From the NCBI RefSeq assembly GCF_004005845.1, contig NZ_SADE01000001.1:1612001-1676000 (forward strand): a stretch of 64,000 bases of DNA. The letters run 5' to 3'. Numbering within the stretch: the stretch's first letter is position 1; every line of letters starts with the position of its first letter. This DNA comes from Hwanghaeella grinnelliae (lineage in GTDB: Bacteria > Pseudomonadota > Alphaproteobacteria > UBA8366 > Aestuariispiraceae). Below the pieces are notes generated by a model. That model was not told the origin of the DNA. It did not search any database and worked only from the letters and a program-made list of their open reading frames with translations. Below, one piece after another: positions 10,578-27,403 of this stretch. The position numbers were made by a program, and so were the translations under genes.

Positions 10578-11279
10578 TTAAACTCCCAGATAGCGTTCCG
10601 TCAGCGCTTCGTCGGCCATCAGGGTTTTGGAGTCGCCGCTCCAGACCACGGCGCCTTTTTCCACGATGTAGTGGCGGTCGGCGATGCGGGCGAGGTCGAC
10701 GATGTTCTTGTCGATCACCAGGATCGATTGCCCCGCATGTTTCAACCGTTCCAGCACGTTCCAGATATCCTGCCGAATGAGAGGCGCGAGGCCCTCGGTC
10801 GCTTCGTCCAGGATCAGAAGCTTGGGGTTGGTCATCAGTGCCCGGCCGATCGCCAGCATCTGTTGTTCCCCGCCCGAAAGCAGGTTCGCCATGCTGCTGC
10901 GGCGTTCCTTCAGCGAGGGAAAGAAGGTGAATATGCTGTCCAGCGTCCAGGGATCTTTGCGTCCGGTCCGATTGGCCGAGGTCGCAACCAGGTTTTCCGT
11001 CACGGTCAGGTTGGGGAAGACTTGCCGACCTTCTGGCACCAGGCCCAGTCCGGCCTGCGCCATGGCGTAAGACGGCTGACCGGTCATGTCTTTGCCATCG
11101 AACTCGATGGTTCCGCTGGCCGGTTGGGTGATGCCCATGACCGAGTGGACGGTCGTCGTCTTGCCCATTCCATTACGGCCGATCAGGGTGACGACCTCGC
11201 CCGCATTGACTTCAAGCGCCATGCCGAACAAGGCCTGGCTGGCGCCATAATAGGTTTCCAGTGCTTCGACACGCAGCAT
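10578..11279 (-). CDS. livF: Branched-chain-type ABC transporter ATP-binding protein (LivF family)
   Basis: A 233-residue ATPase with Walker A GRNGMGKTT, signature LLSGGEQQML and Walker B LLILDEATEG. The opening MLRVEALETYYGASQALFG is characteristic of LivF. Start 11279 is used because the upstream in-frame extension lies inside livG, whose stop is at 11281-11283. It is the last gene of a five-gene HAAT-type importer. Its place downstream of gentisate-pathway genes suggests an aromatic acid as cargo rather than leucine. Confidence 0.92.
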   Translation of the reverse strand: MLRVEALETYYGASQALFGMALEVNAGEVVTLIGRNGMGKTTTVHSVMGITQPASGTIEFDGKDMTGQPSYAMAQAGLGLVPEGRQVFPNLTVTENLVATSANRTGRKDPWTLDSIFTFFPSLKERRSSMANLLSGGEQQMLAIGRALMTNPKLLILDEATEGLAPLIRQDIWNVLERLKHAGQSILVIDKNIVDLARIADRHYIVEKGAVVWSGDSKTLMADEALTERYLGV

Positions 11280-11280
11280 G

Positions 11281-12027
11281 TCAGGCGGCCTCCTCACCAA
11301 GATAGGCGCGTTTGACTTCTTCGTTGGAACGGATCGCGTCGGGTGTGTCGGTCGCGATGATCGCGCCGTAAACCAGAACGGAAATGCGATCCGCCAAGGC
11401 GAAGACAGCGTCCATGTCATGTTCGATCAGCAGCATCGTCTTGGACCCTTTGAACTTGTTCAGGATCTCCACCATGCGGCTGGATTCTTCCTGGCCCATG
11501 CCTGCCATCGGTTCGTCCAGAAGCAACAGCTTGGGATCGGTGGCGAGCGCCATGGCGATTTCCAATTGCCGGTGTTCCCCATGGCTGACGGCGTTGGCGA
11601 GACTGTTCGCCTTATCTTTCAGACCGACCTGCGCCAGATATTCCATCGCCGGTTCGAACAGGGAGCTGTCCTTCGCCGTCGGTTTCCAGAAGCGGAAGGA
11701 ATGGCCCTGGTGCGCCTGGATCGCCAAGGCTACGTTTTCCAGCATCGTCATGTCCTGGAACACGCTGGTGATCTGAAACGACCGGGCCAGGCCCATATGC
11801 GACCGTGCATGCATGGGGTGGTTCGTGATGTTCCGTCCGGCGAACAGAATTTCACCGGAATCGGGAAGCATCTCTCCCGAAAGCTGTGAGATCAGCGTCG
11901 TCTTGCCGGCACCGTTCGGACCGATGATGGCGTGCAACTCGCCTTCGGCGACATCCAGACTGACATGGGAGGTGGCGTGAACCCCACCAAAGCTCTTGTT
12001 CAGGTCGCGGACTTCCATCAAGGCCAT
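11281..12027 (-). CDS. livG: Branched-chain-type ABC transporter ATP-binding protein (LivG family)
   Basis: A 248-residue ATPase with Walker A GPNGAGKTT, a signature of the LivG form (VSHGEHRQLE) and Walker B LLLLDEPMAGM. The start at 12027 overlaps the livM stop by one base (TAATG), so the two are translationally coupled. One base separates it from livF. Together with LivF it would power import through the LivH/LivM pore. Confidence 0.92.
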   Translation of the reverse strand: MALMEVRDLNKSFGGVHATSHVSLDVAEGELHAIIGPNGAGKTTLISQLSGEMLPDSGEILFAGRNITNHPMHARSHMGLARSFQITSVFQDMTMLENVALAIQAHQGHSFRFWKPTAKDSSLFEPAMEYLAQVGLKDKANSLANAVSHGEHRQLEIAMALATDPKLLLLDEPMAGMGQEESSRMVEILNKFKGSKTMLLIEHDMDAVFALADRISVLVYGAIIATDTPDAIRSNEEVKRAYLGEEAA

Positions 12028-13007
12028 TACACCGCCTCCTTCTTCTTGGAGAACCACCTGCGCAGAAGGCCCGCGATACCGCCTTGGACGAACAGGACCA
12101 CCAATACCAACAGCAAGCCGAATATCAGGTGCCAATAGGTCGTGATGGCGGACAAAATTTCCTCGATCACCAGGAAGGCGAGGACGCCGTAGACCGGGCC
12201 GAAGATGGTGGCCGTACCACCGAGGACGACCATGAAGATCAACTCGCCTGACCGGGTCCAGTCCATCATTTCCGGGCTGATGAATTCGGTGAAGTTGCCC
12301 AGCAACGCGCCGGCATAGCCGCAGATTGCGCCGGAAATGACATAGGCGGTCAACCGGTAGCGATAGGTCGGGAAGCCCAGCGCGCCCATTCTGCGTTCGT
12401 TGGACTTCGACCCTTTGACCACCATGCCGAAGCGCGAATTGACCAACCGATGCACGATGAATAGCACGACGGCCAGCGAGACGAGGCAGACATAATAGAA
12501 TGTCGTGTCGTCATACATATCGATCAGGTCGCCGAAATTACTGCGCTCATAAATGATCAGGCCGTCATCGCCGCCGTATTCTTCCAAGGAAACGAAGCCG
12601 TAGAACATCATTTGGCCGAAGGCCATGGTGATCATGATGAAGTGCACGCCCTTGGTCCGCAGACTGATCGCGCCGGTGATCAGGGCGTAAAGGGCCGCAC
12701 AGGCGACGGCCAACAGAATATGCAGGAAGCCGCTGTATTCGTCGTAATAGGCGGGAATGCCGACCGCATAGGCGCCGATCCCCAGGAAAGCCGCATGCCC
12801 GAAACTGACCATGCCGCCGAAACCCAGGATCAGGTTAAGGCTGGCCGCCGCGATCGACAGGATCAACATGCGGGTGAAAACGTCCAGCCAGAATGCTTGG
12901 TCCAGCGCTTCGATAATTGGTGGGGCGAAGGCCAACAGCACCATGACGACAACGCCGATGATGAGCCAGCGCGGTGCGGAGAAAATGGAATTAGGACGAG
13001 ATGACAT
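12027..13007 (-). CDS. livM: Branched-chain-type ABC transporter permease (LivM family)
   Basis: A 326-residue membrane protein with about eight to ten helices. It carries the family phrases SLNLILGFGGMVSFGHAAFLGIGAY and ISLRTKGVHFIMITMAFGQM, and the cytoplasmic coupling segment NERRMGALGFPTYRYRL. The C-terminus is basic (RRWFSKKKEAV). It lies 14 bp downstream of livH and overlaps livG by one base. Confidence 0.92.
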   Translation of the reverse strand: MSSRPNSIFSAPRWLIIGVVVMVLLAFAPPIIEALDQAFWLDVFTRMLILSIAAASLNLILGFGGMVSFGHAAFLGIGAYAVGIPAYYDEYSGFLHILLAVACAALYALITGAISLRTKGVHFIMITMAFGQMMFYGFVSLEEYGGDDGLIIYERSNFGDLIDMYDDTTFYYVCLVSLAVVLFIVHRLVNSRFGMVVKGSKSNERRMGALGFPTYRYRLTAYVISGAICGYAGALLGNFTEFISPEMMDWTRSGELIFMVVLGGTATIFGPVYGVLAFLVIEEILSAITTYWHLIFGLLLVLVVLFVQGGIAGLLRRWFSKKKEAV

Positions 13008-13021
13008 GATGGACGGACCGT

Positions 13022-13945
13022 TTATCGAACTTTGGGCGGGAAAAGGCCTTGCGGACGCACGGCCAGGACGATCGCCATCAGGATATAGACAAGCATGGCG
13101 GAGATGGCTGGCGCCGCCGTCTCCGCATTTTCAGCACCCATGAACAACTTCAGGAACTGGTCCAGATAAGACCGTCCCAGCGTGTCGATCAGGCCGACGA
13201 TCAGCGCACCGACGAAGGCGCCTTTGATTGAGCCGATGCCGCCGATGATGATAACGACGAAGGCGACGATGATGATTTCGTTCCCCATGCCGATGCTGGC
13301 CTCGGTGATCGGGGAAATCATCATCCCCGCGACGCCCGCGATGGCGGCGCCGGCCGCGAAGACCAAGGTGAACAGCTTTTTGATGTCCACGCCGAGCGCT
13401 TCGACCATCGTGCGGTTTGAGGCGCCCGCACGGATCAGCATGCCGACACGCGTTTTCGTAACGACATAGTAGAGGCCGCCGGCCACGGCCAGGCCGACCA
13501 CAATGATCGCAACCCGGTAGGTTGGAATGACGATGTCTTCGGCCGGGCGGATCTGGCTGTCCAGCCATTGCGGCAGCGGGATTGCCATGCCGCCGGCACC
13601 CCAGATCAGGTGGACGCCGGTATCGAAAATCAGGATCAGGCCGAATGTCGCCAACACATGGTCGAGATGGTCGCGTTGATACAATCGCCGCACCACCGTC
13701 AATTCCGTCAGATACCCGACCGCAAGCGTCAAGGGTATGCCAAGAAGGACGCCGATCAGGAAGCTGTCGGTGATCATCGTGACCGTGCCGCACATATAGG
13801 CGCCGATCATATAGAACGAGCCATGGGCAAGGTTGATGAAATCCATGATACCGAACACGAGCGTAAGGCCCGCGCAGACCAAGAACAGCAGCACGCCGAG
13901 CTGCATGCCGTTCAGCAATTGGGTTATGACTAGGGATGCATCCAT
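13022..13945 (-). CDS. livH: Branched-chain-type ABC transporter permease (LivH family)
   Basis: A 307-residue membrane protein with the LivH hallmarks LVFGIMDFINLAHGSFYMIGAY near the N-terminus, the coupling loop RAGASNRTMVEALGVDIKKLF, and GGIGSIKGAFVGALIVGLID. It pairs with LivM to form the translocation pore. It is separated from the binding-protein gene by 129 bp, which may hold a processing site; no strong terminator was seen. Confidence 0.92.
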   Translation of the reverse strand: MDASLVITQLLNGMQLGVLLFLVCAGLTLVFGIMDFINLAHGSFYMIGAYMCGTVTMITDSFLIGVLLGIPLTLAVGYLTELTVVRRLYQRDHLDHVLATFGLILIFDTGVHLIWGAGGMAIPLPQWLDSQIRPAEDIVIPTYRVAIIVVGLAVAGGLYYVVTKTRVGMLIRAGASNRTMVEALGVDIKKLFTLVFAAGAAIAGVAGMMISPITEASIGMGNEIIIVAFVVIIIGGIGSIKGAFVGALIVGLIDTLGRSYLDQFLKLFMGAENAETAAPAISAMLVYILMAIVLAVRPQGLFPPKVR

Positions 13946-14074: not shown

Positions 14075-15256
14075 CTACATTTTGCATTCGGACGCATAGA
14101 CGTCCTGGTGCATGTCATAGACGGTGGAGACGATCTTAGTCGTCCAATTGCCGTCCGCATCAGCGACGGTTTCGCGCAGATACAGGTTCGAAATCGGGAA
14201 GTGGTTGTTGCCGATCTTGATGTTGCCACGTGTGGGCAGATAGGTGGTTTCTTTCATCGCCTTGCGCAGCGCGTCCTTATCGGTGAGATTCCCGCCGACT
14301 TTTTCGACCGCTTGTTTGATGAAGAACATCGCGTCATAGGCCTGCGCGCCGTAGAAGGACGGGTAGGTGCCGTATTTCGCTTTGAAGTCGCTGACGAACT
14401 TCTTGTTCTCCGGCGTGTCCAGGTCCGGCGACCAGGTCTGCGTGGCGAAGGAGCCCAAAACCCCGGTCAGTCCACCTTCCTGCAGTCGCGGCAGTGACAG
14501 CGCGTCGACGGTGAAGACGGTGTAGAGCTTCATGCTGTCGGCCAGTCCGGCTTGTTCGAACTGTTTGATGAAAGCGCCGCCGGCTTTTCCCGGATAGAAG
14601 ACCCAGATCGCTTCCGCGCCGGATGCCTTTGCCTTTGCCAATTCGGCGGAGAAGTCGAGCTGCGCGTCCTTACCCCATTTGGTCAGGTCCTTGCCCTTGA
14701 TTTCGCCCTTGAAGGTGCGTTCCACGCCCGCGGCCATGTCCTTACCCGCGGCATAGTTCGGGGCCATGATATAGACTGATTTCACACCGTTCTGGTTCAG
14801 CACTTCACCCAGCGCCATCGGCGTCTGGTCGTTTTGCCACGAGACGGAGAAGAAGTTCTTGTCGCAGCGGTTGCCGGCCAATTGGGACGGGCCCGCATTG
14901 GCGGAGATCAGGAACGTGTCGGCGCCGAGCGCCGCGCGGGACGAGGCCAGCAGCACGTGGCTCCAGATGAAGCCGGTCACGAAGTCGACTTCGTCCTGCT
15001 TCACCAGTTTTTCGGTTTTCTGCTTGCCGATTTCCGGTTTGAAACCATCGTCTTCGAAGATGACTTCAAGGTCGAGGTTACCCATCTTGCCGCCCATATG
15101 CTCAACAGCGAGCTCCGCGGCATTTTTCATGTCGTTGCCGATGACCGCAGCCGGCGTCGTCAACGTGGTCACGAATCCGACCTTTACGCTGTCCGCAAGG
15201 ACCGGCGTTGCCATCATCGTGGCGGCCAAGGCCGCGCTAATAAAACTCTTCTTCAT
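14075..15256 (-). CDS. Periplasmic substrate-binding protein of the HAAT ABC transporter
   Basis: A 393-residue type-I periplasmic binding protein. The signal peptide is residues 1-21 (MKKSFISAALAATMMATPVLA). The mature start DSVKVGFVTTLTTPAAVIGNDM and the lobe phrases VDFVTGFIWSHVLLASSRAAL and VKSVYIMAPNYAAGKDMAAG fit the branched-chain/aromatic-acid binding family. The start has GGGAGA seven bases upstream. Its promoter region (15257-15500) carries the AT-rich palindrome shared with the OYE gene, so expression is probably induced with aromatic catabolism. Cargo such as a hydroxybenzoate is inferred from context only. Confidence 0.88.
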   Translation of the reverse strand: MKKSFISAALAATMMATPVLADSVKVGFVTTLTTPAAVIGNDMKNAAELAVEHMGGKMGNLDLEVIFEDDGFKPEIGKQKTEKLVKQDEVDFVTGFIWSHVLLASSRAALGADTFLISANAGPSQLAGNRCDKNFFSVSWQNDQTPMALGEVLNQNGVKSVYIMAPNYAAGKDMAAGVERTFKGEIKGKDLTKWGKDAQLDFSAELAKAKASGAEAIWVFYPGKAGGAFIKQFEQAGLADSMKLYTVFTVDALSLPRLQEGGLTGVLGSFATQTWSPDLDTPENKKFVSDFKAKYGTYPSFYGAQAYDAMFFIKQAVEKVGGNLTDKDALRKAMKETTYLPTRGNIKIGNNHFPISNLYLRETVADADGNWTTKIVSTVYDMHQDVYASECKM

Positions 15257-15410
15257 ATGCTTTCTCCCAGATGCCAGAGCGCAATCTGTTTAGTTAATGA
15301 CCCTGTTCCCGCAGCCTTTGCGGCCATCTTATTCTCGGTTCTTAGGAACGCTTCTTCACGGGCCAGAATGGCGCATTAACGCCGGTACTTCCAGCCCGCG
15401 ATTCATGGAA

Positions 15411-15429
15411 ACTTTATATATAAAATATT
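15411..15429. promoter_or_regulatory. AT-rich palindromic operator candidate upstream of the ABC binding protein
   Basis: TTTATATATAAA lies at 15413-15424 inside a 19-bp stretch identical, in inverted orientation, to the one at about 2334-2352. It is about 160 bp upstream of the binding-protein ATG and 75 bp downstream of the fumarylpyruvate hydrolase stop, so a separate regulated promoter for the transporter is likely. Confidence 0.55.
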
Positions 15430-15500
15430 CCCATGTGAAGCATTCGCTTTGCCGAGCATTACATTAGGAAACGGCAGTTTTCCTTATGCCTTGCGTCTTC

Positions 15501-16202
15501 CTAATCTGTGTAGCGGACCGAGATTTCCCCCAATCCATCGACGCCGCCTTTCAGGGTGTCGCCGGATACCACAGGGCCGACACCGGCCGGCGTTCCCGTG
15601 TAGATCAGGTCGCCCGGATAGAGGCGGTGAAACTTGGAAAGATCGGCGATCGTTTCTTCGACATTCCAGATCATTTCGGCCAAGTCGGCATCCTGTTTCA
15701 TCTCGTCATTGACCGAGACCCAGATGCGGCCCTTGTTCATCGCAGCACCGCCGTCGGCCTTGGTGATGGCGCCGATCGGCGCGCCGTATTGGAAGTTCTT
15801 GCCGTTGTCCCAGGGGCGGCCCTTTTCACGCATCTTGATCTGCAAGTCGCGCCGGGTCATGTCCAAGCCGACTGCATAACCGTAGATATAGCTGGCGGTT
15901 TCTTCCTGTGGGATTTCGAAGCCTTCCTTGCCGATGGCCACGACCAGTTCGATTTCGTGATGGAAATTGCTGGTCTGCGGCGGGTAGGGCAGGGGAACGG
16001 TTTCGCCATCCGGGCAATTGACGATGGAATAGCGTCCCTTCTTGAAGAAGAACGGCGGGTCGCGGTCTTCGCCAAAACCCATTTCCTTGCGGTGTTCCCA
16101 GTAATTGCGCCCCACGCAATAGATTTCCCCGACGGGGAAGAATTCATCGGTGCCGCGGATCGGAACGGCGGTGGTGGCGGGCGGGTCGAAGCAGAATTGC
16201 AT
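15501..16202 (-). CDS. Fumarylacetoacetate hydrolase family protein, probable fumarylpyruvate hydrolase
   Basis: A 233-residue FAH-fold enzyme. Visible motifs are the opening YCVGRNYWEHRKEMG, the metal ligands in FHHEIELVVAIGKEG and YGYAVGLDMTRRDLQ, and the C-terminal GDLIYTGTPAGVGPVVSGD. This small form matches the NagK type that splits fumarylpyruvate into fumarate and pyruvate in the gentisate pathway. Position directly after gentisate dioxygenase supports that. The start at 16202 is preferred: a frame reaching 16409 would overlap the dioxygenase gene, and its extra residues look non-coding. No maleylpyruvate isomerase is next to it. Confidence 0.85.
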   Translation of the reverse strand: MQFCFDPPATTAVPIRGTDEFFPVGEIYCVGRNYWEHRKEMGFGEDRDPPFFFKKGRYSIVNCPDGETVPLPYPPQTSNFHHEIELVVAIGKEGFEIPQEETASYIYGYAVGLDMTRRDLQIKMREKGRPWDNGKNFQYGAPIGAITKADGGAAMNKGRIWVSVNDEMKQDADLAEMIWNVEETIADLSKFHRLYPGDLIYTGTPAGVGPVVSGDTLKGGVDGLGEISVRYTD

Positions 16203-16275
16203 TATCGATTTCCTCGGTTTTGGCGTGTTGTTGATTGGCTGACATATACCAGGCCGGCCAAAGGTAAGATCAGTC

Positions 16276-17319
16276 TCAGGCGCTGTCCCGTTGTTCGTTC
16301 CAGATGCCAAGTTTTTCCTGCATGCCTTTGTCCGAATAGACAAACAAGACAAGGTCGTCCTGGGCTTCGAATGCATGGCGATGCCAGCTTGGAATGACGA
16401 AGATGTCACGCGGTTTCAAGTCATAGGTGACATCGCCGATGGCGACCTTGCCGGTTCCTTCCACGACGGTGACGACCATCGAGTCCGTCGCCTTGTAGCC
16501 CGCGGTCTTGAAGCCCTTCGGCAGCATTTGCACGAAGGCGGCGATGGTCGGCATGACCGGGCCGCCGTCGGCCGGATTGATGAACTGAAGCTTCAAGCCC
16601 AGATTCGGGTCCCATTCAGTGCCGCCCCGCATCTGTTCCAAGGCCTCGCGGTATTCCGCATAGGGGTAATGGAAGACGGGGGAGGATTTCGACGGCGCCT
16701 CGAACCCGACCGGCAGCATGTTGGAACCGAAGCGCTTCCGGCTGTCGCCCGGCGGGCGGCGGTCCAATTGGTATTCGTCATTGCCTTGTTGGGCGAAACT
16801 GGCGTCGAAGAAGCGGATCGTCGGAATGTCCAATCCGTCCAGCCAGACCATCGGGCCGTCGCTTTCGTTGCCGTGGTCGTGCCACTGCCAACTTGGCGTC
16901 AGGATCAGGTCCCATTCCTTCATGATCGCGCGTTCGCCGTCCACGGCGGTATAGGCGCCATCGCCTTCCATCACGAAGCGCAGGGCGCATTGCGTATGAC
17001 GGTGGCAGGGCGCGATCTCCCCCGGCATGATCAATTGCAGGCCGGCATAGAGCGATTGCGTGACCGCCGATTGCCCCGGCAGGCCCGGGTTTTCCAGTAT
17101 CAAGACCCGGCGTTCCGCTTCCTTCGCGGTGATCAGGTCAGCCGATGCCATGACGTATGAGCGCACGTCGTCATACCGCCACCGGACGGTCTGGACCGGG
17201 CTGACCGGTTCCTTGGCGACAAGGGCGTGCAAGACTTCCCATAGCGGCGCCATGTTGTGCGGGCGGATCTCGTCATAGAAGGCCTTGCGGTCGTCGGGTA
17301 TCGCTTTTTCGGTGCTCAT
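16276..17319 (-). CDS. Gentisate 1,2-dioxygenase
   Basis: A 347-residue bicupin. The first cupin carries the iron-binding histidines in APCHRHTQCALRFVMEG and WDLILTPSWQWHDHGNE; the following phrase VWLDGLDIPTIRFFDASFAQ is characteristic of gentisate dioxygenases. The second cupin (VVTVVEGTGKVAIGD, DIFVIPSWHRHAFEA) completes the fold. The enzyme opens gentisate between C1 and C2 to give maleylpyruvate using Fe(II) and O2. It lies 10 bp downstream of the 5'-nucleotidase stop and 73 bp upstream of the hydrolase start, all on one strand. Confidence 0.92.
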   Translation of the reverse strand: MSTEKAIPDDRKAFYDEIRPHNMAPLWEVLHALVAKEPVSPVQTVRWRYDDVRSYVMASADLITAKEAERRVLILENPGLPGQSAVTQSLYAGLQLIMPGEIAPCHRHTQCALRFVMEGDGAYTAVDGERAIMKEWDLILTPSWQWHDHGNESDGPMVWLDGLDIPTIRFFDASFAQQGNDEYQLDRRPPGDSRKRFGSNMLPVGFEAPSKSSPVFHYPYAEYREALEQMRGGTEWDPNLGLKLQFINPADGGPVMPTIAAFVQMLPKGFKTAGYKATDSMVVTVVEGTGKVAIGDVTYDLKPRDIFVIPSWHRHAFEAQDDLVLFVYSDKGMQEKLGIWNEQRDSA

Positions 17320-17329
17320 CCCTGCTTCC

Positions 17330-19153
17330 CTATTTCTCGATGGATTGGGTTGAATAGTCTTCGACCGGCAGTTTCCCGACGGTGCCGCGCTGCTTCACGA
17401 AATCGACGAAACTTTGCGCGTAGTCCAGATAGGTGTTCAAAGACCGCCCGTCTTCCGTCACGGTCTTGAAGGTGGCGTAGCCGTCGCGGCCGGCGCCGAT
17501 ATAGTCGTTGGTGATCACCTTGTAGGATCGTGACGGGTCGAGGGGCGCCCAGGTCCGGTCCGATGGACCCTTGAATTCCACATCCGTGAAGCGGCTGCCT
17601 TTCCCGGCGGACAAGTCGACATTCCAGCGCAACCCCGCGGCATACGGATAGGCCCCGGTAGAGCCGTCCGGCAGCAGCGCGTAGTCCAAGGCGTCTTCCA
17701 GAACCGCATGGATTTCCGCACCGGTCATGGTCAATTCGACAAGGGTGTTTGAGAAGGGCAGCAGTTCATAGGCGGTGCCGATGCTGATCGGTCCGGCGGG
17801 AATGTCTATACGCACACCGCCGCCGTTCTGAATGGCGATATCGCCGGTCTTGGACATTTCGCGGAAGGCATAAGCCACCAGCATGGTTATGTCTGACCCA
17901 TGCCCGGCGGTATCCGATTTCGAACAGACCTTCGACCGGCCCTGACCGGGGATGCGTTCCAGGCACAAATCATCGCTGGTCTCGCCTATGATTTCACCCT
18001 TCCGCGCGTCGACCGTTTTCGCAAATCTCTCGAAGACAGCCTTGGTTGCCGCGTCTTCCTTGCCCAGCGTCAAATAAGGATGGTCCGCGACGGCGGCGAG
18101 GACGGCATCGCGGTCCGATCCGTTCAATTCAACCCGCTCGCCGTCCGCATTTTTCCGTTTGAAACTGTCGGCCAGCTGCAAATGAGGCTTGCCCGAACAG
18201 GCGGCGACCGTGCCGTCCGCGTTGAAGTCGACTGCAAGCTCGCCGAGGATGCGGGCATACTCCCAGGCATGGGCCACGCAGACCATGTTGCCGCCGTCAC
18301 CGGAAATAACGGTCGGGTAGGGGCCCCTGGCGTTCAAGCCAATATCGTCGAAGTCCTCGCCAAGCAGCGTGTGGCTGTCGCCGCCGACGATCACGTCGAC
18401 GCCCCTCAGCTTCTGCGCCAGCGCGATATCGTTGCCATAGCCGAAATGGGTCAGCAGCACGATGCGCTCCACGCCCGCGGCAGTCAGTTCGTCGATGTAT
18501 TTTTGGGCGGTTTCGGCCTCGTCCAGGAATTGCGTCGTCGGATCGGGGCTGGAGGAATTCTTGGTCTTGGACGCGATGTCGATACCAATGATGCCGACCT
18601 TCGCACCCCCGACCTGTTTGATCACGTAGGGCAGGATATAGTCGTCGGGGTTATTCGGCGCCAAGGGGGATCCCCCAACTTCCGGCACGACATTCGCACC
18701 CAGGACCGGTGTTCCGCAGTCGCCTTTGCGGAGGAAGTCGATGAAGTTCTTTAACCCCGCATCGCCCAGGTCGAATTCATGATTACCCAGCGCGAAGGCG
18801 TCGAAACATATGGAATTCATCAAGGCCGCATCGGCCTCACCCTTGAACAAGGTGAAGAACAGGTCGCCCATCATCGCGTCCCCGGCATGCAGCTTCAGGA
18901 CATTTTCCCTGCTTTCGGAAAGTGTCTTGAATTGGTTTGCCAGCATGGGAAACCCGCCGCCCGAAACCCGGGTCCGCTCACCGGCCAGGATCAAGTCTAT
19001 CGAACCGTCCGCCGCCAGATGGGAATGGTGGTCGTTGATATGCAGGATCGTCAGATCGGCCGCCTTTACCGACAAGGGGGCGGTCATGGCGGCGCATATG
19101 GCCAAGCCCGCCAGGGCATTTGTCAGAAAACGGGACGGCCGTGTGTAGGTCAC
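17330..19153 (-). CDS. Periplasmic bifunctional metallophosphatase/5'-nucleotidase
   Basis: A 607-residue protein with a signal peptide (LTNALAGLAICAAMTAPLSVKA). The N-terminal metallophosphatase domain has LTILHINDHHSHL, LKLHAGDAMMGD, DAFALGNHEFDLG and VDVIVGGDSHTLL. The C-terminal 5'-nucleotidase domain has DIAIQNGGGVRIDIPAGPIS and the substrate-stacking region ITNDYIGAGRDGYATF. Such enzymes dephosphorylate nucleotides or split NAD in the periplasm. It starts with GTG overlapping the CoA-ligase stop by 4 nt (GTGA), so it is coupled to the aromatic operon. Why a periplasmic nucleotidase sits there is unclear. Confidence 0.88.
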   Translation of the reverse strand: MTYTRPSRFLTNALAGLAICAAMTAPLSVKAADLTILHINDHHSHLAADGSIDLILAGERTRVSGGGFPMLANQFKTLSESRENVLKLHAGDAMMGDLFFTLFKGEADAALMNSICFDAFALGNHEFDLGDAGLKNFIDFLRKGDCGTPVLGANVVPEVGGSPLAPNNPDDYILPYVIKQVGGAKVGIIGIDIASKTKNSSSPDPTTQFLDEAETAQKYIDELTAAGVERIVLLTHFGYGNDIALAQKLRGVDVIVGGDSHTLLGEDFDDIGLNARGPYPTVISGDGGNMVCVAHAWEYARILGELAVDFNADGTVAACSGKPHLQLADSFKRKNADGERVELNGSDRDAVLAAVADHPYLTLGKEDAATKAVFERFAKTVDARKGEIIGETSDDLCLERIPGQGRSKVCSKSDTAGHGSDITMLVAYAFREMSKTGDIAIQNGGGVRIDIPAGPISIGTAYELLPFSNTLVELTMTGAEIHAVLEDALDYALLPDGSTGAYPYAAGLRWNVDLSAGKGSRFTDVEFKGPSDRTWAPLDPSRSYKVITNDYIGAGRDGYATFKTVTEDGRSLNTYLDYAQSFVDFVKQRGTVGKLPVEDYSTQSIEK

Positions 19154-20817
19154 TGCTGAAGGGTCTCCTCAAGTGCCCGCTTGCAAGCTTGCCGGTCGAT
19201 CTTGTCGGTGCCTGTCTTCGGCAGGGTGTTCATATAGATCACCTGGCGGGCGTATTTGTAGGGCAGCAGCTTGTCCTGGGTGTAGGCTTTCAGTTCCTTG
19301 CCCAGGGCGTCGCCGCCCTCAATGCCCGGCATCGGGGCGATAGCGGCGGCCAGTGTCATGCGACCATCCGCCAACGGCAAGCCCATCACCGCGCATTCCA
19401 TCACCTTTGGATGTTCGTTGAGGCAAAGTTCCACTTCCAGCGGATAGACCCATTGGCCGCTGACCTTGATCAGATCATCCGCGCGGCCTTTGAAGAAGAA
19501 GAAGCCGTCCTCGTCCATGACGAACCGGTCGCCGGTCCAGATCCACCCGTCGCGCATGGTCTCGGCGGTCTTGTCCGGGCGGTTCCAATAGCAGGGCGCG
19601 TTTGAATCGCCGCGGACCCAAAGGATACCTTCCTCGCCGGTCGCGACCGGATTGCCGTCCCGATCGGTCAACTTCGTTTCATAACCCGGTACGCGCTGGC
19701 CCGCCGATCCCGGTTTTTGCTGCTCAATGGTGTTGGACAGATAGATGTGCAGCACTTCGGTGGAGCCCAGCCCCTCGATGATGCGGTGACCGAACCGGTT
19801 CTCCCAGGCACCGAAAACGTCCTGCGACAGGATTTCCGCGGCGGAAATGCAGCGGCGGACCGAGGCCAGATCCGCGCCTTCCGACTCGGGCGCCTTGATC
19901 ATGGCGGTATAAACCGTCGGCAGGGCGAAGAAGAGTGTGGGGCGGTGGCGCGCGATCTGTTCAAAGATCTTGTCCGGCGTCGGCCGGCCCGCGAACAGCA
20001 TGGTGCTGGCGCCGGCATGGAAGGGGAAGGTGATGCTGTTGCCGAAGCCATAGGCGAAATAGATCTTCGGAACCGAAAAGCAGATGTCGTCCGGCTCGAT
20101 GCCGAGGACCCGGTCGGCGTAGGAAATCGCCGTATAGAGCATGTCGTGATGCAGGTGAACGACAGCCTTCGGGCGCCCTGTGGAGCCGGAGGAATACATC
20201 CAGAACGCCATGTCGTCGCGGCCGGTATCGGCGGCGTCCAGTTGGTCGGATGCGCCGGTCACTGCATCCGGCCCCAGGATCGAGATGTTCGCCGAAGCCA
20301 AGCCCGGAACGGTCTCTGTACCCGTGCCTTCGGTCAGGATCACGGCCTCCAGACTCGTCGTCGACCAGTCTTCCGACCCGAAAGCGTCTAGGAACTCGGG
20401 TTGGGTGACACAGGCGCGCGCACCGGAATTTTCCGCGTAATAGTGCAACAGGTCGGGCGGGGACTGCGTGTTCAGAAAGACCGGTGCCAGCCCCGCGCGG
20501 ATTGCGCCGAAGGCGGCAGCGGGATAGGCAGGACCGTCGTTCAGAACGATAAGGACGCGATCCCCTCGCATAAGACCGAGAGAGAGCATCGCGTTGCCGT
20601 AGCGGCAGGCATCCCGGCACAGCGCGCCATAGGTTATGTTCCCCGCGTCGGAATAGACGGCAACCTTGTCCGCCAGTCCCTTGTCCATATTGTCGAACAG
20701 AATGGCGGACGCATTATAGACCTCAGGAACTGTGAAGCCGATTTCCCGTGCCGCTTCGCCATCGCGCGGGACGAGGTCCTTGATCTGAACGGATTCTTGC
20801 AACGTCATCTCGTTCAT
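19150..20817 (-). CDS. Benzoate-CoA ligase family aryl-CoA synthetase
   Basis: A 555-residue ANL enzyme. The phosphate loop is MYSSGSTGRPKAVVHLHHD, followed by VPKIYFAYGFGNSITFPFHAG and LGSTEVLHIYLSN, which are typical of benzoate-CoA ligases. The hinge and adenylate motifs are WIWTGDRFVMDEDG and GRADDLIKVSGQWVYPLEVE, and the C-terminal catalytic Lys lies in PKTGTDKIDRQ. It activates an aromatic acid to its CoA thioester via an aryl-AMP. Because a salicylyl-CoA-5-hydroxylase-like gene overlaps it by 4 nt upstream and gentisate dioxygenase lies downstream, salicylate (or 3-hydroxybenzoate or 2-aminobenzoate) is the likely substrate class. Confidence 0.88.
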   Translation of the reverse strand: MNEMTLQESVQIKDLVPRDGEAAREIGFTVPEVYNASAILFDNMDKGLADKVAVYSDAGNITYGALCRDACRYGNAMLSLGLMRGDRVLIVLNDGPAYPAAAFGAIRAGLAPVFLNTQSPPDLLHYYAENSGARACVTQPEFLDAFGSEDWSTTSLEAVILTEGTGTETVPGLASANISILGPDAVTGASDQLDAADTGRDDMAFWMYSSGSTGRPKAVVHLHHDMLYTAISYADRVLGIEPDDICFSVPKIYFAYGFGNSITFPFHAGASTMLFAGRPTPDKIFEQIARHRPTLFFALPTVYTAMIKAPESEGADLASVRRCISAAEILSQDVFGAWENRFGHRIIEGLGSTEVLHIYLSNTIEQQKPGSAGQRVPGYETKLTDRDGNPVATGEEGILWVRGDSNAPCYWNRPDKTAETMRDGWIWTGDRFVMDEDGFFFFKGRADDLIKVSGQWVYPLEVELCLNEHPKVMECAVMGLPLADGRMTLAAAIAPMPGIEGGDALGKELKAYTQDKLLPYKYARQVIYMNTLPKTGTDKIDRQACKRALEETLQQ

Positions 20818-21956
20818 CCCGCAACCCTTTTCTTGGCCGCGTCGTATTGCGCCATGAATTTCGGTGCATTGGCACGCAGTTTGTCGTCATCCATCCGTCC
20901 GGCACGTTTGATGTAGCCATGAGCGAAGTCCAGTGGCGGCATCTCCATATGGGCGACGAACTGCTCGTACCAATTGGCACTCTCCTCAGCGGCGCGGACC
21001 AGTTTCGCGACAATCGGTTTGCGGTCGTCCTGATAGGCCTGCAACGCCGCCTGCATATCGCTTGGGTTCTCGCGGATCGATTTGGCGAGGGAAATTGCAT
21101 CTTCCATCGCCAGGCGTGTGCCCGAACCGATGGAAAAATGCGCAGTATGCAGGGCATCGCCGATCAGCACCTTGTTTCCACTATACCATGTCTCGTTCCA
21201 GACCTTGGGGAAGACGCGCCAGATCGATTTATTGGAAATCAGCGGGTGGCCGTCCAGGACGTCGGCGAAGACGGCTTCGCATATCTCGCGGCTTTCGTCA
21301 TCGCCGGCTTGGTCCAAGCCGGCATTCCTCCAAACTTCTTCTGTCGTCTCCACGATGAAGGTGCTCATATTCGGCGCATAGCGGTAGTGGTGCGCGTTGA
21401 ACGGGCCCCATTCCGATCGTCTGAAGGTCTGAGTCAGGGTCGGGAAGGTTTTGGTCGTGCCGTACCAGGCAAACCGGTTGGTCAGGTTGTCGACGCTGGC
21501 GCCGAAACCTTCCGGGTCGCCGTTGCGGATGACGGAATTGACTCCATCCGCGGCGATGACCAGGTCTGCGCTTTCCGCATCGACCGTATAGGCATCCGGT
21601 GCGCTGCCGAATTTCAATTCTACGCCAACGTCTTCGGCGCGTTGGGTGAGAATTTGGATTAGTTTCAGGCGGGCAACCGCGGCAAAGCCGACACCGTCTA
21701 TGGCTGTCTTGTCGCCCATCAAGTCGATGGTGATGTCTTGCCAGGTTTCCAATTGTCCGGCGAAGGCGCGGTAGGTATCGGGATCATCCGCTTCCAGGAA
21801 GGACAGGGCGCGGTCGGAAAATACCACGCCGAAACCCCAGGTTACGTCCCGTGGATTTTGTTCGTAAACGGTGACTGTTGCCGCAGGGTTGTCACGTTTC
21901 AGCAGGGTGGCTGAATACAGGCCGGCCGGCCCGCCGCCTAGGACGGTGATCCGCAT
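20814..21956 (-). CDS. FAD-dependent aryl-CoA monooxygenase (salicylyl-CoA 5-hydroxylase-like)
   Basis: A 380-residue group-A flavoprotein hydroxylase. The FAD dinucleotide motif is ITVLGGGPAGLYSATLL at residues 3-19, then the DG motif VIAADGVNSVIR and the GD motif VLIGDALHTAHFSIGSGTR. The sequence style (VTWGFGVVFSDRALSFLEADD, FNAHHYRYAPNMSTFIVE) is that of the N-terminal half of 2-aminobenzoyl-CoA monooxygenase/reductase and of the SdgC-type salicylyl-CoA 5-hydroxylase. Start ATG 21956 follows GGGAG by six bases; an ATG at 21974 lacks this. It is the first gene of the aromatic operon and overlaps the ligase by 4 nt. The product would be gentisyl-CoA if the substrate is salicylyl-CoA. Confidence 0.8.
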   Translation of the reverse strand: MRITVLGGGPAGLYSATLLKRDNPAATVTVYEQNPRDVTWGFGVVFSDRALSFLEADDPDTYRAFAGQLETWQDITIDLMGDKTAIDGVGFAAVARLKLIQILTQRAEDVGVELKFGSAPDAYTVDAESADLVIAADGVNSVIRNGDPEGFGASVDNLTNRFAWYGTTKTFPTLTQTFRRSEWGPFNAHHYRYAPNMSTFIVETTEEVWRNAGLDQAGDDESREICEAVFADVLDGHPLISNKSIWRVFPKVWNETWYSGNKVLIGDALHTAHFSIGSGTRLAMEDAISLAKSIRENPSDMQAALQAYQDDRKPIVAKLVRAAEESANWYEQFVAHMEMPPLDFAHGYIKRAGRMDDDKLRANAPKFMAQYDAAKKRVAG

Positions 21957-22168
21957 GGGTCGCTCCCTCTCCAAATCCGGTTGGCATTCCGTACCCGGTT
22001 TACCCAGGTTTTTATTTTTCCGTTATATACAATAAATTCACGGATATGCAATTCACCAAAACAACCAAGGCAATTCGTACGAGAAACCGTCTGGATGCTT
22101 GAGCCATCAGGGATACGCACATAACGATATGCGCAAGAAGGCAGGGAACACATTGCGGGGCGAACGGA

Positions 22169-22969
22169 ATGGAAATGGAAAAAGGCGGGCCGGAACGGAA
22201 CGGCACGCGGCGTGGCATTCAGTCTTTTGACATCGGCCTGTCGGTGTTGGAGGCCTTCGTCGCGGCGCAGGGCCCCCTGACCCTGACGCAATTGGGTGAT
22301 AACCTGGGCATGCCGGCCAGCAAGCTTCACCGATATGTTTCCAGCCTGGTCTCGGCGGGGTTTCTGGACCAACCGCGTCGGTCTGGCGCTTATGATCTTG
22401 GACCGCGGGCCCTTGCGGTAGGGCTGGCCGCGCTCAACCGAAACGATTTCGTCAACCGGGCGGTGTCGGCGACGGAAGAACTCGTCGCGCGCACAGGGGT
22501 AACCGGCACGATTGCGGTTTGGGGCAATTACGGGCCAACGCTGGTCCGGTGGGAACGCGGCACCGACGCATTGACGACCGCACTTGGTCTGGGCTCGGTG
22601 ATGGACCTGTTCAGATCCGCGACAGGCCGGATCTTCGCGTCTTATCTTCCCGAAGGGTCGGTAAAGGCCTTCCTGTCTTCCGGGATCGGTGCAGCCAGCG
22701 GCGCAGTGACCGGTGACGGTGAATACGGCCGGCTTGACGCAATGCGCGGGGAGATCAGACGAATTGGTTATGCCTGTGCGGATGGCGAATACATTCCGGG
22801 CCTTTATGCTGCTTCCGCGCCGGTTCTGAACTGGCAAGGGGATGTGGAAGTGGCGGTGACCCTGGTCGGGCGTACGACGGCGGTCACGGACCCGGAAGGC
22901 GAGATATTGCCGATGCTGGTAGAGACGGCCAGGAACCTCTCGGTCCTCGATCCGGCGTCCGGGAATTAA
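22169..22969 (+). CDS. IclR-family transcriptional regulator
   Basis: A 266-residue regulator. The N-terminal winged helix is GIQSFDIGLSVLEAFVAAQGPLTLTQLGDNLGM, with recognition helix ASKLHRYVSSLVSAGFL. The C-terminal ligand-binding IclR domain spans about residues 90-260 (YDLGPRALAVGLAAL, YGPTLVRWERGTDA, LFRSATGRIFASYLPEG). It is divergent from the monooxygenase operon with 212 bp between starts, so it most likely controls that operon in response to an aromatic effector. The intergenic DNA has an imperfect AT-rich symmetry near 22021-22045 (CCGT...ACGG arms) that could be its site. A second possible start is two codons downstream. Confidence 0.88.
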   Translation: MEMEKGGPERNGTRRGIQSFDIGLSVLEAFVAAQGPLTLTQLGDNLGMPASKLHRYVSSLVSAGFLDQPRRSGAYDLGPRALAVGLAALNRNDFVNRAVSATEELVARTGVTGTIAVWGNYGPTLVRWERGTDALTTALGLGSVMDLFRSATGRIFASYLPEGSVKAFLSSGIGAASGAVTGDGEYGRLDAMRGEIRRIGYACADGEYIPGLYAASAPVLNWQGDVEVAVTLVGRTTAVTDPEGEILPMLVETARNLSVLDPASGN

Positions 22970-22993
22970 GCGGTGGGTTCGGGGGAAAGTTTG

Positions 22994-23659
22994 ATGGCCA
23001 GTGCGCAAAAGGGAAATGGATCGCCCGGAAACAGATCGCGCGGAGACGGATCGCGCGGCAATGGATTGCATGACGACACGCCAAGCGCGGGCGCGGAGGG
23101 GGCGGAAGCGAGCGAGTCGGGTCGCGACCACCAAGGTCCGGCGGCAGGGAAGTCTGACCGACTTTTGGCCGGTATCGCAGTCGGCGGCGGCATGGTGGAT
23201 AGCGACGGCATCGTCCGCATCAGTCTGGGCAATATGCCGGACCTGATCGGATATAATCTGCGCCTTGCGCAGTTGCGGGTTTTCGATCATTTCCGGGAAA
23301 CGCTGAAGGTCAGCGGCGACCCCGTGCTTGCGACGATTACGCCGGGGCTTTTCCGCATCCTGGTTCTTGTGCGTGACAATCCCGGCCTGAACCAAAGTCG
23401 GTTGGCAGCCGCGGTCGGTATCGATCGGTCGACATTGGTGCCGATCCTCAACAGGCTCAGCAAACTCGGTTTGATCGAACGGCGGCAGTCCCGAAACGAT
23501 GGGCGCGCCCATTCGGTTCATCTGACCTTCGATGGCGCCAGTACGGTCGGCCGAATGGAGGACTTGGTCGATCAGCATGAGCAGGAAATCGCCAAATCGC
23601 TGACGAAGCGGGAGAAGACGCAACTGATCGGCTTGCTCCGCAAGCTCGGTAACAGTTGA
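22994..23659 (+). CDS. MarR-family transcriptional regulator with long disordered N-terminus
   Basis: A 221-residue protein. Residues 1 to about 65 are low-complexity, Gly/Arg/Asp/Ser-rich and encoded in part by a 15-bp tandem repeat. From about residue 75 on it is a MarR winged helix: IGYNLRLAQLRVFDHFRE, then PGLFRILVLVRDNPGLNQSRLAAAVGIDRSTLVPILNRL (helix-turn-helix) and the wing GLIERRQSRNDGRAHSVHLT. Start ATG 22994 has GGGGGAAAG upstream; a GTG at 22973 is less likely. It follows the IclR gene by 24 bp, so both regulators are probably co-transcribed. It is a good candidate to bind the AT-rich palindromes at 2.3 and 15.4 kb, though this is inference. Confidence 0.85.
   Translation: MASAQKGNGSPGNRSRGDGSRGNGLHDDTPSAGAEGAEASESGRDHQGPAAGKSDRLLAGIAVGGGMVDSDGIVRISLGNMPDLIGYNLRLAQLRVFDHFRETLKVSGDPVLATITPGLFRILVLVRDNPGLNQSRLAAAVGIDRSTLVPILNRLSKLGLIERRQSRNDGRAHSVHLTFDGASTVGRMEDLVDQHEQEIAKSLTKREKTQLIGLLRKLGNS
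23018..23062 (+). repeat. 15-bp tandem repeat, three imperfect copies
   Basis: Copies at 23018-23032, 23033-23047 and 23048-23062 follow the pattern rGATCGCsCGGmrAy. They lie in the MarR coding region and give a Gly/Asn/Arg/Ser-rich five-residue repeat. Replication slippage in a disordered tail is the simple explanation. Confidence 0.7.
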
Positions 23660-23712: not shown

Positions 23713-24828
23713 CTAGAAGTGCAATTCCTGCACCGCCTCATCTTCGATTCCGATGGTTCTGGCGTGACGCTTCTGCCCGTAAAGCACGGTGCCGTCGGAC
23801 TGCGTTTCGATTGTCATTTCACCGCTTCGAACAAGATGCTCCAAATGGGCGACGGTCTCGCCGATGGCGAAGACGAAGTTCCCCGCTTCTTCAATCCTGG
23901 GAAACAGGATCTTTTTCGCCTGCAAGGTGGTCAAAGCCCCGGTTTCGCGCAGGCCGTCCCGCAACTCCTGCAATCGGTCGCGGTGATGGTCCAGTAATTC
24001 GTCGATGCGCCGGTGCAGGCTTCTGAAGGGCTGCCTGTGCGACGGCAGAACAAGGGCGTCAGCGGGCAGGGAGCGGCATTTGCTGATGCTGGCCAGGAAA
24101 TCGGGCAACGGCGACACGCCGCTGCGGTACCACCAGACGGAAACGATCGGGCTGATCTGCGGCAGAATTTGGTCGCCGGAGATGAGGACATTGGTTTGCG
24201 CGCAATACAGGATGGCCTGTGCCGGCGTGTGACCGCCGACCGTGATGACACGCCAGTCACGCCCGCCAATCGGCAGGATATCGCCGTCATCGATCGGCAG
24301 GAACATTTCCGGTGGGCGGCCGACGCCCATGTTGTAAGCGTTCCCGCGCTTGAGGTGAAAATCCCGGATTTCCCGGGGCACGCTGTGCCGGGCAAGGAAT
24401 CTGTCCTGACTAGTGGCGAATTCCTCCCCGGTGACGCGCCATAACAGCGTCGCGGTCGTCCATTCGCGGTCCGTCATCCGGAATGTCAGGCCAAAGGTAT
24501 CCACCAACCAGCCGGCAAGGCCGAAGTGATCCGGGTGATAATGGGTGCAGATCAATTGCGCCGGCCGGCGACCGGCGGCGGGGCCTTCGAAAATCTTGTT
24601 CCAAAGATCCTTGGTCAGGTTGCTCGCCATGCCTGTATCGATGATCGTCCAGGTCGGCGTGCCGTCTTCCGGATCGAAATCCTCAAGAAGCCAAAGGTTG
24701 ATATGATCGAGCGCCATCGGCAGCGGCATGCGGATCCAATGAACGCCGGGCGCGACCTCCACGATCTCTCCGTGTTCGGGTGGCGGAATGTCCAGATAGT
24801 CCATCCCGTCCTGTCGCATATGCGTCAT
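23713..24828 (-). CDS. MBL-fold metallo-hydrolase
   Basis: A 371-residue metallo-beta-lactamase-fold protein. Metal ligands appear in ICTHYHPDHFGLAGWL, VGGHTPAQAILYC, NVLISGDQILPQ and VLPSHRQPF. The C-terminal region (about 280-371) is helical and may be the winged-helix tail found in this glyoxalase-II-like branch. These proteins hydrolyse thioesters or other esters. Beside CoA ligases, an aroyl-CoA thioesterase role is plausible but not shown. The start has AGGGG seven bases upstream. It lies 10 bp after the alpha/beta hydrolase gene and is convergent with the MarR gene. Confidence 0.82.
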   Translation of the reverse strand: MTHMRQDGMDYLDIPPPEHGEIVEVAPGVHWIRMPLPMALDHINLWLLEDFDPEDGTPTWTIIDTGMASNLTKDLWNKIFEGPAAGRRPAQLICTHYHPDHFGLAGWLVDTFGLTFRMTDREWTTATLLWRVTGEEFATSQDRFLARHSVPREIRDFHLKRGNAYNMGVGRPPEMFLPIDDGDILPIGGRDWRVITVGGHTPAQAILYCAQTNVLISGDQILPQISPIVSVWWYRSGVSPLPDFLASISKCRSLPADALVLPSHRQPFRSLHRRIDELLDHHRDRLQELRDGLRETGALTTLQAKKILFPRIEEAGNFVFAIGETVAHLEHLVRSGEMTIETQSDGTVLYGQKRHARTIGIEDEAVQELHF

Positions 24829-24838
24829 TGTTTTCCCC

Positions 24839-25666
24839 TCACAGCCGTCCGACGAATTCGCCGATGGCGTCTAGTACCTGGTCTCGCTGGTCACGGTGCG
24901 GCGAATGCCCGCAATTCGGAAGCATCAATGTCGTGCATGGACCTGACACGCCTTGTTCGACGGCTACGATCTGCTCGGCGCTGCCGTATTCGTCGTCTTC
25001 ACCCTGAATGACCAGGACAGGGCAGTCTATCACCGGCAGGCAGTTTTCAATATTCCAGTCCCGAAAGGCGGGGTGCAGCCATATGTCGTTCCAGCCGCGG
25101 AAAGTACGGCGGGAGTCGCGATGATAGCGGCCCAATTTTTCAGCCATGTCGGATTCGTCGAACAACGCCGCGATCTTTGCGATGGAATTCACCGAAATCT
25201 GTTCCACGAAGACATGTGGCGCCATCAGAACCAGACCGGCAATTTTCCGGCCGGAAAGACCGGCATGGAGCAGGGCGATGGAAGCGCCGTCGCTATGCCC
25301 GATCAGGATGGGATTTTCCATGCTCAGCGCGTCGAGCAAGCCGGGCAGGGCAACGGTGCCCTCGTCATGCATATAGGCGGTGTCGAACGGTTCCTGCAGA
25401 ATATCGGATTGGCCGTATCCATAGCGGGAATAGACCAGAGCCCGACGATCGGTGGCGGCAGATACGGCGGCCGGAAAGTCACGCCACATTGCCACTGAGC
25501 CCAAACCTTCATGCAGGAAGACGAGCGGCGGTGCGTTCGATGCCGCCTCGTCGTTGAGCATCGCGCATTCCAGCATGCGCCCGGCGGCGGGCTGCATGAA
25601 GTTGCGCGCGTTCGCCATGATTGCCGCGATGCTTCTCGCTTGGTTGCGGGGATTGTTCGACGACAT
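24839..25666 (-). CDS. Alpha/beta hydrolase
   Basis: A 275-residue alpha/beta-hydrolase-fold protein. The oxyanion region is PLVFLHEGLGSVAMWRDFP. The nucleophile elbow reads LIGHSDGASIAL with Ser in G-H-S-D-G, the acid lies in VLVIQGEDDEYGS, and the catalytic His in LMLPNCGHSPHRDQ. Relatives of this type often sit beside benzoate-CoA ligase genes and may hydrolyse ring-fission or ester intermediates. It begins 9 bp after the ligase stop and is followed by the MBL hydrolase after 10 bp, forming a tight minus-strand set. Confidence 0.85.
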   Translation of the reverse strand: MSSNNPRNQARSIAAIMANARNFMQPAAGRMLECAMLNDEAASNAPPLVFLHEGLGSVAMWRDFPAAVSAATDRRALVYSRYGYGQSDILQEPFDTAYMHDEGTVALPGLLDALSMENPILIGHSDGASIALLHAGLSGRKIAGLVLMAPHVFVEQISVNSIAKIAALFDESDMAEKLGRYHRDSRRTFRGWNDIWLHPAFRDWNIENCLPVIDCPVLVIQGEDDEYGSAEQIVAVEQGVSGPCTTLMLPNCGHSPHRDQRDQVLDAIGEFVGRL

Positions 25667-25675
25667 CGTTCAGTC

Positions 25676-27226: not shown

Positions 27227-27403
27227 AACGTCCTCCCTATACATCTTTGTCGCGGGTCCGGTTCGGCTGACTGTGGCGCCGTCCGGCTTCTCTTATTCTT
27301 TGTGCGTCCCAAATAGGCGTTCCAGATGGGGTCCGCCCCCGGTATCCCATATGGTTGTTCCATACGGGGTGTTTGCCCCGCCGGGTCTTTGGTCTGCTAT
27401 CTG

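Follow-up and report, generated by a model that had tools for sequence, protein, structure and literature searches.

A predicted NAD nucleotidase of the NadN type encoded within a salicylyl-CoA/gentisate-type operon of Hwanghaeella grinnelliae

The window, by which we mean the whole stretch of 64,000 nucleotides that was analysed, carries on its minus strand a set of genes in the order salicylyl-CoA 5-hydroxylase-like flavoprotein, CoA ligase, nadN, gentisate dioxygenase, fumarylacetoacetate-hydrolase (FAH)-family hydrolase, LivK, LivH, LivM, LivG and LivF, with the gene for an IclR-type regulator divergent from it:

22973-23659, after the IclR gene: MarR-type open reading frame; its best models score below their cut-offs.
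22169-22969, plus strand: IclR-type regulator, divergent, 266 aa; its best models score below their cut-offs.
20814-21974, minus strand: single-domain salicylyl-CoA 5-hydroxylase-like flavoprotein, 386 aa from the listed TTG; the true start may be slightly downstream.
19150-20817, minus strand: benzoate-CoA-ligase-family protein, 555 aa; TIGR02262, 471 bits against a cut-off of 375.
17330-19153, minus strand: predicted NadN-type periplasmic NAD nucleotidase/5'-nucleotidase, 607 aa, GTG start, probable signal peptide in residues 1-31.
16276-17319, minus strand: gentisate 1,2-dioxygenase, 347 aa; TIGR02272, 527 bits, above the equivalog cut-off of 442.
15501-16202, minus strand: FAH-family protein, 233 aa; best model NF007967, 144.8 bits, below the cut-off of 201.
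14075-15256, minus strand: LivK-type periplasmic binding protein (Peripla_BP_6).
13022-13945, minus strand: LivH of a branched-chain-type ABC transporter (10578-13945), named by reading of the translation.
12027-13007, minus strand: LivM of the same transporter, named by reading of the translation.
About 11281-12027, minus strand: LivG of the same transporter, named by the translation, start set by eye.
About 10578-11279, minus strand: LivF of the same transporter, named by the translation and by NCBIfam matches below cut-off, start set by eye.

The hydroxylase-like protein aligned to the first 383 of the 768 positions of NF006101, the model for the bifunctional salicylyl-CoA 5-hydroxylase/oxidoreductase, with 398 bits against a cut-off of 1078, and thus covers the first half of that model only and falls short of the bifunctional type. 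A second member of the hydroxylase family lies elsewhere in the same genome (G000:C1:2059263-2060378) in an 822-aa frame, as two-domain forms do. The FAH-family protein is probably a fumaryl- or maleylpyruvate hydrolase. On the same strand, 23713-27244 holds a second aromatic-looking set, composed of an MBL-fold hydrolase, an alpha/beta hydrolase and a benzoate-CoA ligase (748 bits against the TIGR02262 cut-off of 375), and this trio is also present in the congener in our sample.

The nadN frame occupies exactly 17330-19153 on the minus strand and encodes 607 aa from a GTG start codon. The GTG start and the TGA stop of the CoA-ligase gene share the tetranucleotide GTGA (4-nt overlap), a GAGGAG stretch is located 11 nt upstream of the GTG within the ligase gene, and 10 bp (17320-17329) separate the nadN stop from the ATG of the gentisate 1,2-dioxygenase gene, in full agreement with the position and spacing reported in an earlier sequence-only reading of this DNA. 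The signal peptide proposed in that reading is probable: judged by eye, the N-terminus looks like a signal peptide with an A-x-A-like site (VKA/AD), suggesting that NadN is exported to the periplasm. A scan of 15300-22300 for consensus promoters returned a single site, at 15411-15439 (2.4 expected by chance), and none in front of nadN, a result that is compatible with one transcript for the operon but is no proof of it. An intact 607-aa frame whose product shares 72-73% identity with a protein from another genus is far beyond chance. A recent foreign insertion of nadN is unsupported, as its base composition (GC 59.8%, GC3 75.8%) resembles that of its operon neighbours.

Several lines of evidence bear on the identity of the nadN product. 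Pfam recognised Metallophos (PF00149) and 5_nucleotid_C (PF02872) in it, both over their cut-offs, which is the domain architecture of NadN. The product passed the equivalog model TIGR01530 (nadN, NAD nucleotidase) narrowly, with 450.8 bits against a cut-off of 436 (3% above), while the 13 other NCBIfam models listed for it all scored far under their cut-offs; its operon-borne relative from Pacificispira spongiicola scored 448.7 bits on TIGR01530, and among ten further proteins scanned with this model, five passed and five failed (one of the failures being a fragment and one an outgroup protein). The nearest solved chain is H. influenzae NadN 3ztv (E 1.6e-111, and 7.3e-164 with the family profile). 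A predicted structural model with a mean pLDDT of 89.9, in which residues 1-30 are the sole stretch with pLDDT under 50, gave Z scores of 48.5 to NadN 3zu0 and 48.4 to NadN 3ztv, followed by 42.9 to the T. thermophilus 5'-nucleotidase 2z1a, mostly about 41 (41.6) to CD73, about 34 (34.4) to UshA and about 33 (32.9) to SoxB, so that the closest solved fold to the predicted model is that of NadN, ahead of CD73, UshA and SoxB. The rmsd to NadN is large, at 7.5 to 8.6 A over 501-555 residues (3zu0: 7.5 A, 501 aligned), probably reflecting a different hinge between the two domains of the model. UshA was rejected as the identity of the protein (NF007109, 120.7 bits against a cut-off of 600, and a lower structural Z), and SoxB was rejected by its scores. 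Elsewhere, the genome encodes another, distinct protein that has a 5_nucleotid_C domain.

At the second metal site the protein has G-D-S-H, as does H. influenzae NadN, where a venom 5'-nucleotidase has GHTN and the T. thermophilus enzyme GHSH; GDSH was present in 45 of the 48 proteins compared (that of the window included), the three others being more distant outgroup proteins with GHSH/GHTH. We used GDSH in place of G-H-S-x as a mark of NadN on the basis of our own reading of these alignments, and it is an unpublished criterion. The residues that we take to be the metal- and substrate-binding residues of the family are all present (NDHH, GD at 91-92, GNHE, H236, GDSH, NGGGVR and PFSNT). Where the sequence-only reading saw a 5'-nucleotidase, the nucleotidase family stands and the plain 5'-nucleotidase does not, because the TIGR01530 cut-off is passed and the fold is closest to NadN. 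On these sequence and model comparisons, the product is likely an NAD nucleotidase rather than a generic 5'-nucleotidase; because the passing margin is thin and five of the ten further proteins fail TIGR01530, specificity for NAD is likely but not certain. According to PMC8038981, the H. influenzae enzyme is active on NAD, NMN and AMP, and PMC8475336 names AMP, NAD and UDP-sugars.

To place the arrangement in a wider setting, we used a sample of 14 Aestuariispiraceae genomes, in which G000 is the genome of the window, G001 its congener and G010 P. spongiicola. A relative of the single-domain hydroxylase (at least 50% identity) was present in ten of these (G000, G001, G003, G005 and G008-G013), and in all ten its gene adjoins that of the CoA ligase. 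NadN lies inside the cluster in two of the ten, the genome of the window and P. spongiicola, and was absent from the cluster in the other eight within the region fetched. In the P. spongiicola cluster (L040:4519-11953), the hydroxylase and ligase genes are followed by one for a LysE-type translocator and, 108 bp after this, by nadN, with FAH, two LivK and LivHMGF next in order; this cluster is without a gentisate dioxygenase, the best matches elsewhere in that genome having only 39% and 36% identity. The congener has the same operon with an empty site: the stop codon of the ligase gene and the ATG of the dioxygenase gene overlap (ATGA) and no NadN lies between them, which localises the insertion. 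The dioxygenase gene likewise directly follows the ligase gene in G003, G008, G009 and G011, and G005, G012 and G013 have it near FAH and LivK, at a distance of some 5-7 kb from the hydroxylase gene. A whole-genome NadN search of the 14 genomes (E 1e-30) returned nothing beyond the two operon copies except a separate copy in the congener and, in G002, a distant protein at 37%; three of the ten cluster-bearing genomes thus have NadN of the GDSH type. At the level of the class, none of 12 regions with the hydroxylase (L146-L157, mostly with the ligase, one of only 3.6 kb) contained NadN, and among 385 sampled genomes, the present one included, three had NadN (E 1e-60 or better) and 80 had a member of the hydroxylase family, two-domain forms being counted. 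The placement of nadN in the operon is real but patchy. Uniqueness to this strain, part of what the sequence-only reading named as refuting its view, is half borne out: the placement recurs in P. spongiicola and hence is not unique, but a congener with the same operon lacks it. The statement that the gene is locked into the operon is too strong.

The two operon-borne NadN are sisters (support 100/98 in a careful tree and 98 in a quick one) with 73% identity, the other operon genes of the two genomes having 59-78% and IclR 52%; this divergence, similar to that of the remaining operon, fits an old insertion followed by losses. In trees of the ligase, hydroxylase, FAH and LivG, the genome of the window groups with its congener (SH-aLRT 95, 100, 97 and 98) and P. 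spongiicola with its own genus (94, 87, 66 and 98), and because all four gene trees show these pairings, the operon was largely inherited by descent. Pairwise identities tie (the ligase of the window has 68% to that of the congener and 69% to that of P. spongiicola, and LivG has 75% to both). The simplest account of these trees would be one nadN insertion before the two genera parted, with later losses at least in the congener and in other genomes of the Pacificispira genus; branching within the latter is weakly defined, so the number of losses is not fixed. Alternatively, nadN may have been transferred from one genus to the other, into the same position. Over its last 60 or so columns (L138:9674-9850, coordinates approximate, just upstream of the site of nadN or the inserted stretch), the ligase of the congener is 40% identical to that of the window and 45% to that of P. 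spongiicola, while those two are 72% alike, and this divergent end may be a scar of nadN loss. The separate NadN of the congener (62-63% identity) stands apart from the operon pair in the tree, a single clade not being rejected (p-AU 0.118), and its gene may have moved out of the operon; this copy is weak evidence, as the genome is listed as 7% contaminated and the gene is split over two contig ends.

Beyond the window, we collected 43 NadN-type loci by a pattern search, which returns only relatives sharing exact peptide patterns, several of them on short contigs. Only the P. spongiicola locus had homologues of the operon hydroxylase, the FAH gene and the main ligase nearby, and a dioxygenase homologue lay beside NadN in none of the 43; a relative, at 26%, of the second ligase occurs at L076, and several loci have matches to generic ABC components. 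Clustering of open reading frames from 42 of the 43 loci (L082 excluded), the window and five other regions revealed no nadN partner common across lineages beyond ABC ATPases, only smaller partner groups of at most seven loci each; Pfam was used to check two of these, pst-phoU and phn. Four loci, from SAR116-type bacteria, are near phosphate or phosphonate genes: at L045 and L050 a pst-type transporter and phoU precede nadN, and at L053 and L055 phnGHIJ (C-P lyase) start one gene downstream of it. Pfam scans cover the genes of L045 and L055; L050 and L053 contain homologues of these according to the clustering. The two scanned regions are:

L045:2323-9788, SAR116-type nadN region with pst-phoU beside nadN.
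L055:7917-13398, SAR116-type nadN region with phn near nadN.

A metagenome-assembled genome of the Comamonadaceae has three nadN-type genes within 12 kb (L070:5829-17039).

We also considered how the host obtains NAD. Searches of its genome (7 contigs, completeness 97.85%) for PnuC, NadA, NadC and the NAPRTase/NAMPT family (PF04095) yielded no match. Three of the 14 family genomes (G002, G004 and G006) have both NadA and NadC, and one (G004) has PF04095; no match to NadA, NadC or PF04095 was found in the remaining 11, namely the ten cluster-bearing genomes and G007 (G000, G001, G003, G005 and G007-G013). PnuC was searched for in the genome of the window alone. In 14 control genomes, matches were obtained for NadA in 12, NadC in 12, PF04095 in six and PnuC in five; the absences of PF04095 and PnuC are the weakest of the four because those models are silent in many controls, and other NAPRTase types could be missed. 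Some of the control genomes silent for PF04095, for example Corynebacterium, have a nicotinate phosphoribosyltransferase. To our knowledge, neither aspartate nor tryptophan leads to NAD by known routes without NadC. Because NadC appears to be absent, these bacteria should need pyridine from outside, and on these genome searches their NAD precursors should be external. An enzyme that converts external NAD to nicotinamide riboside fits such a need by analogy with H. influenzae, as described in PMC8038981 and PMC10694654. NadN cannot be the general answer, because seven of the ten cluster-bearing genomes are without NadN of the GDSH type, and how 11 of the 14 family genomes get NAD is a testable gap.

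Taking these observations together, we consider it probable that nadN encodes a periplasmic passenger enzyme that scavenges NAD and nucleotides, is made with the operon and performs no chemical step of the aromatic pathway. As the third cistron of a salicylyl-CoA/gentisate-type operon, nadN would probably be co-produced with its neighbours and its product exported to the periplasm, where, by homology to H. influenzae NadN, a two-metal centre would split NAD into NMN and AMP; dephosphorylation of both would yield nicotinamide riboside, adenosine and phosphate and so supply the cell with pyridine, purine and phosphate. The gene would be an accessory salvage gene that was inserted between the CoA-ligase and ring-cleavage genes before Hwanghaeella and Pacificispira split and that subsequently disappeared from this place in most relatives. 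Among the three ideas of the sequence-only reading, the scavenging of nucleotides is the best. Counting against NAD scavenging are the margin of only 3% on TIGR01530 and the lack of a match to a PnuC-family NMN/nicotinamide riboside importer in this genome, because of which the fate of the nicotinamide riboside is unexplained. Moreover, the seven cluster-bearing genomes without NadN, NadA or NadC matches are evidently alive, so NadN is not the sole source of NAD precursors.

The enzyme could instead act as a general phosphomonoesterase of the periplasm that serves the cell by releasing phosphate, its place in an aromatic operon being accidental. The four SAR116-type loci near phosphate or phosphonate genes favour phosphate as the product that matters, and PMC8475336 assigns some nucleotidases to phosphate-starvation regulons. 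At the present locus, however, the neighbouring genes that were scanned include none recognisable as serving phosphate uptake. We also scanned the window with a Pho-box consensus, which gave three matches against 2.57 expected and none between 11099 and 36002, and hence none near the promoter end of the operon; with no excess of sites, Pho-box control of the operon was rejected. We regard this alternative as rather unlikely. The two other ideas of the sequence-only reading, a recruited phosphatase for phosphorylated aromatics and the splitting of extracellular CoA or aryl-nucleotide conjugates, are not supported; they amount to a direct aromatic role in which the enzyme would release aryl acids extracellularly from conjugates with phosphate, AMP or CoA, for uptake of the acid by the Liv-type transporter. 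The tight spacing with the ligase and dioxygenase genes would suit such a role, as would the position of nadN between the ligase and FAH genes in a second genus, but eight of the ten family clusters and the 12 class-level hydroxylase regions do without NadN, P. spongiicola keeps NadN with no dioxygenase in the operon, and hydroxylase or FAH homologues accompany NadN at one and dioxygenase homologues at none of the 43 loci, a comparison that covers the genes of this operon and includes several short contigs. In addition, we know of no aryl-phosphate step in the salicylyl-CoA/gentisate pathway, which counts against this role, and we judge it highly improbable.

A further alternative is a functional link between NAD scavenging and the pathway, in that the operon would tie scavenging of external NAD to an aromatic pathway that consumes reductant and flavin in a host that cannot make NAD de novo. 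Consistent with this idea, all ten cluster-bearing genomes lack NadA and NadC matches, the three genomes with both are without the single-domain hydroxylase, and NadN of the GDSH type is found in three of the ten cluster-bearing genomes and none of the three NadA-positive ones. This pattern may nevertheless simply follow the family tree; G007 is without NadA, NadC and the cluster alike, and NadN is outside the operon or absent in eight of the ten, that of the congener lying on other contigs. Such coupling is distinctly unlikely. In its boldest form, an alphaproteobacterial lineage without matches to NadA, NadC and PF04095 (and, in the genome of the window, PnuC) would have wired periplasmic NAD hydrolysis into an aromatic-acid operon, and cells that live on the aromatics of dying cells or hosts would thereby collect the NAD of these as well, through a new uptake route; we hold this to be very unlikely. 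The reading that we prefer, a NAD- and nucleotide-scavenging passenger, changes the gene from a 5'-nucleotidase of an aromatic pathway to a likely NAD nucleotidase riding in an aromatic operon. In the open-licence literature, we found no paper on a nucleotidase in a gentisate dioxygenase operon or a salicylate/gentisate gene cluster, nor on a marine NAD nucleotidase.

Among characterised enzymes, H. influenzae NadN (TIGR01530; 3ztv and 3zu0) is alike in its two-domain fold, the GNHE and GDSH motifs and about 40% identity along almost its full length, and differs in that the present gene sits in an aromatic catabolic operon. H. influenzae, according to PMC10694654, imports the resulting nicotinamide riboside, whereas the present genome has no match to a PnuC-family transporter. 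The 5'-nucleotidases of the CD73 and UshA types share the superfamily and fold (Z about 41 and 34) but are less similar, the venom 5'-nucleotidase of the CD73 kind having GHTN where the present protein has GDSH and the UshA cut-off being missed by far. Operons for degradation through salicylyl-CoA and gentisate (sdg-type) are known from Streptomyces and others. They have in common with the operon described here a CoA ligase, a salicylyl-CoA 5-hydroxylase-like protein, a gentisate 1,2-dioxygenase and an FAH-family hydrolase, and the present operon differs from them in its single-domain hydroxylase, the inserted nadN and the Liv-type ABC transporter downstream.
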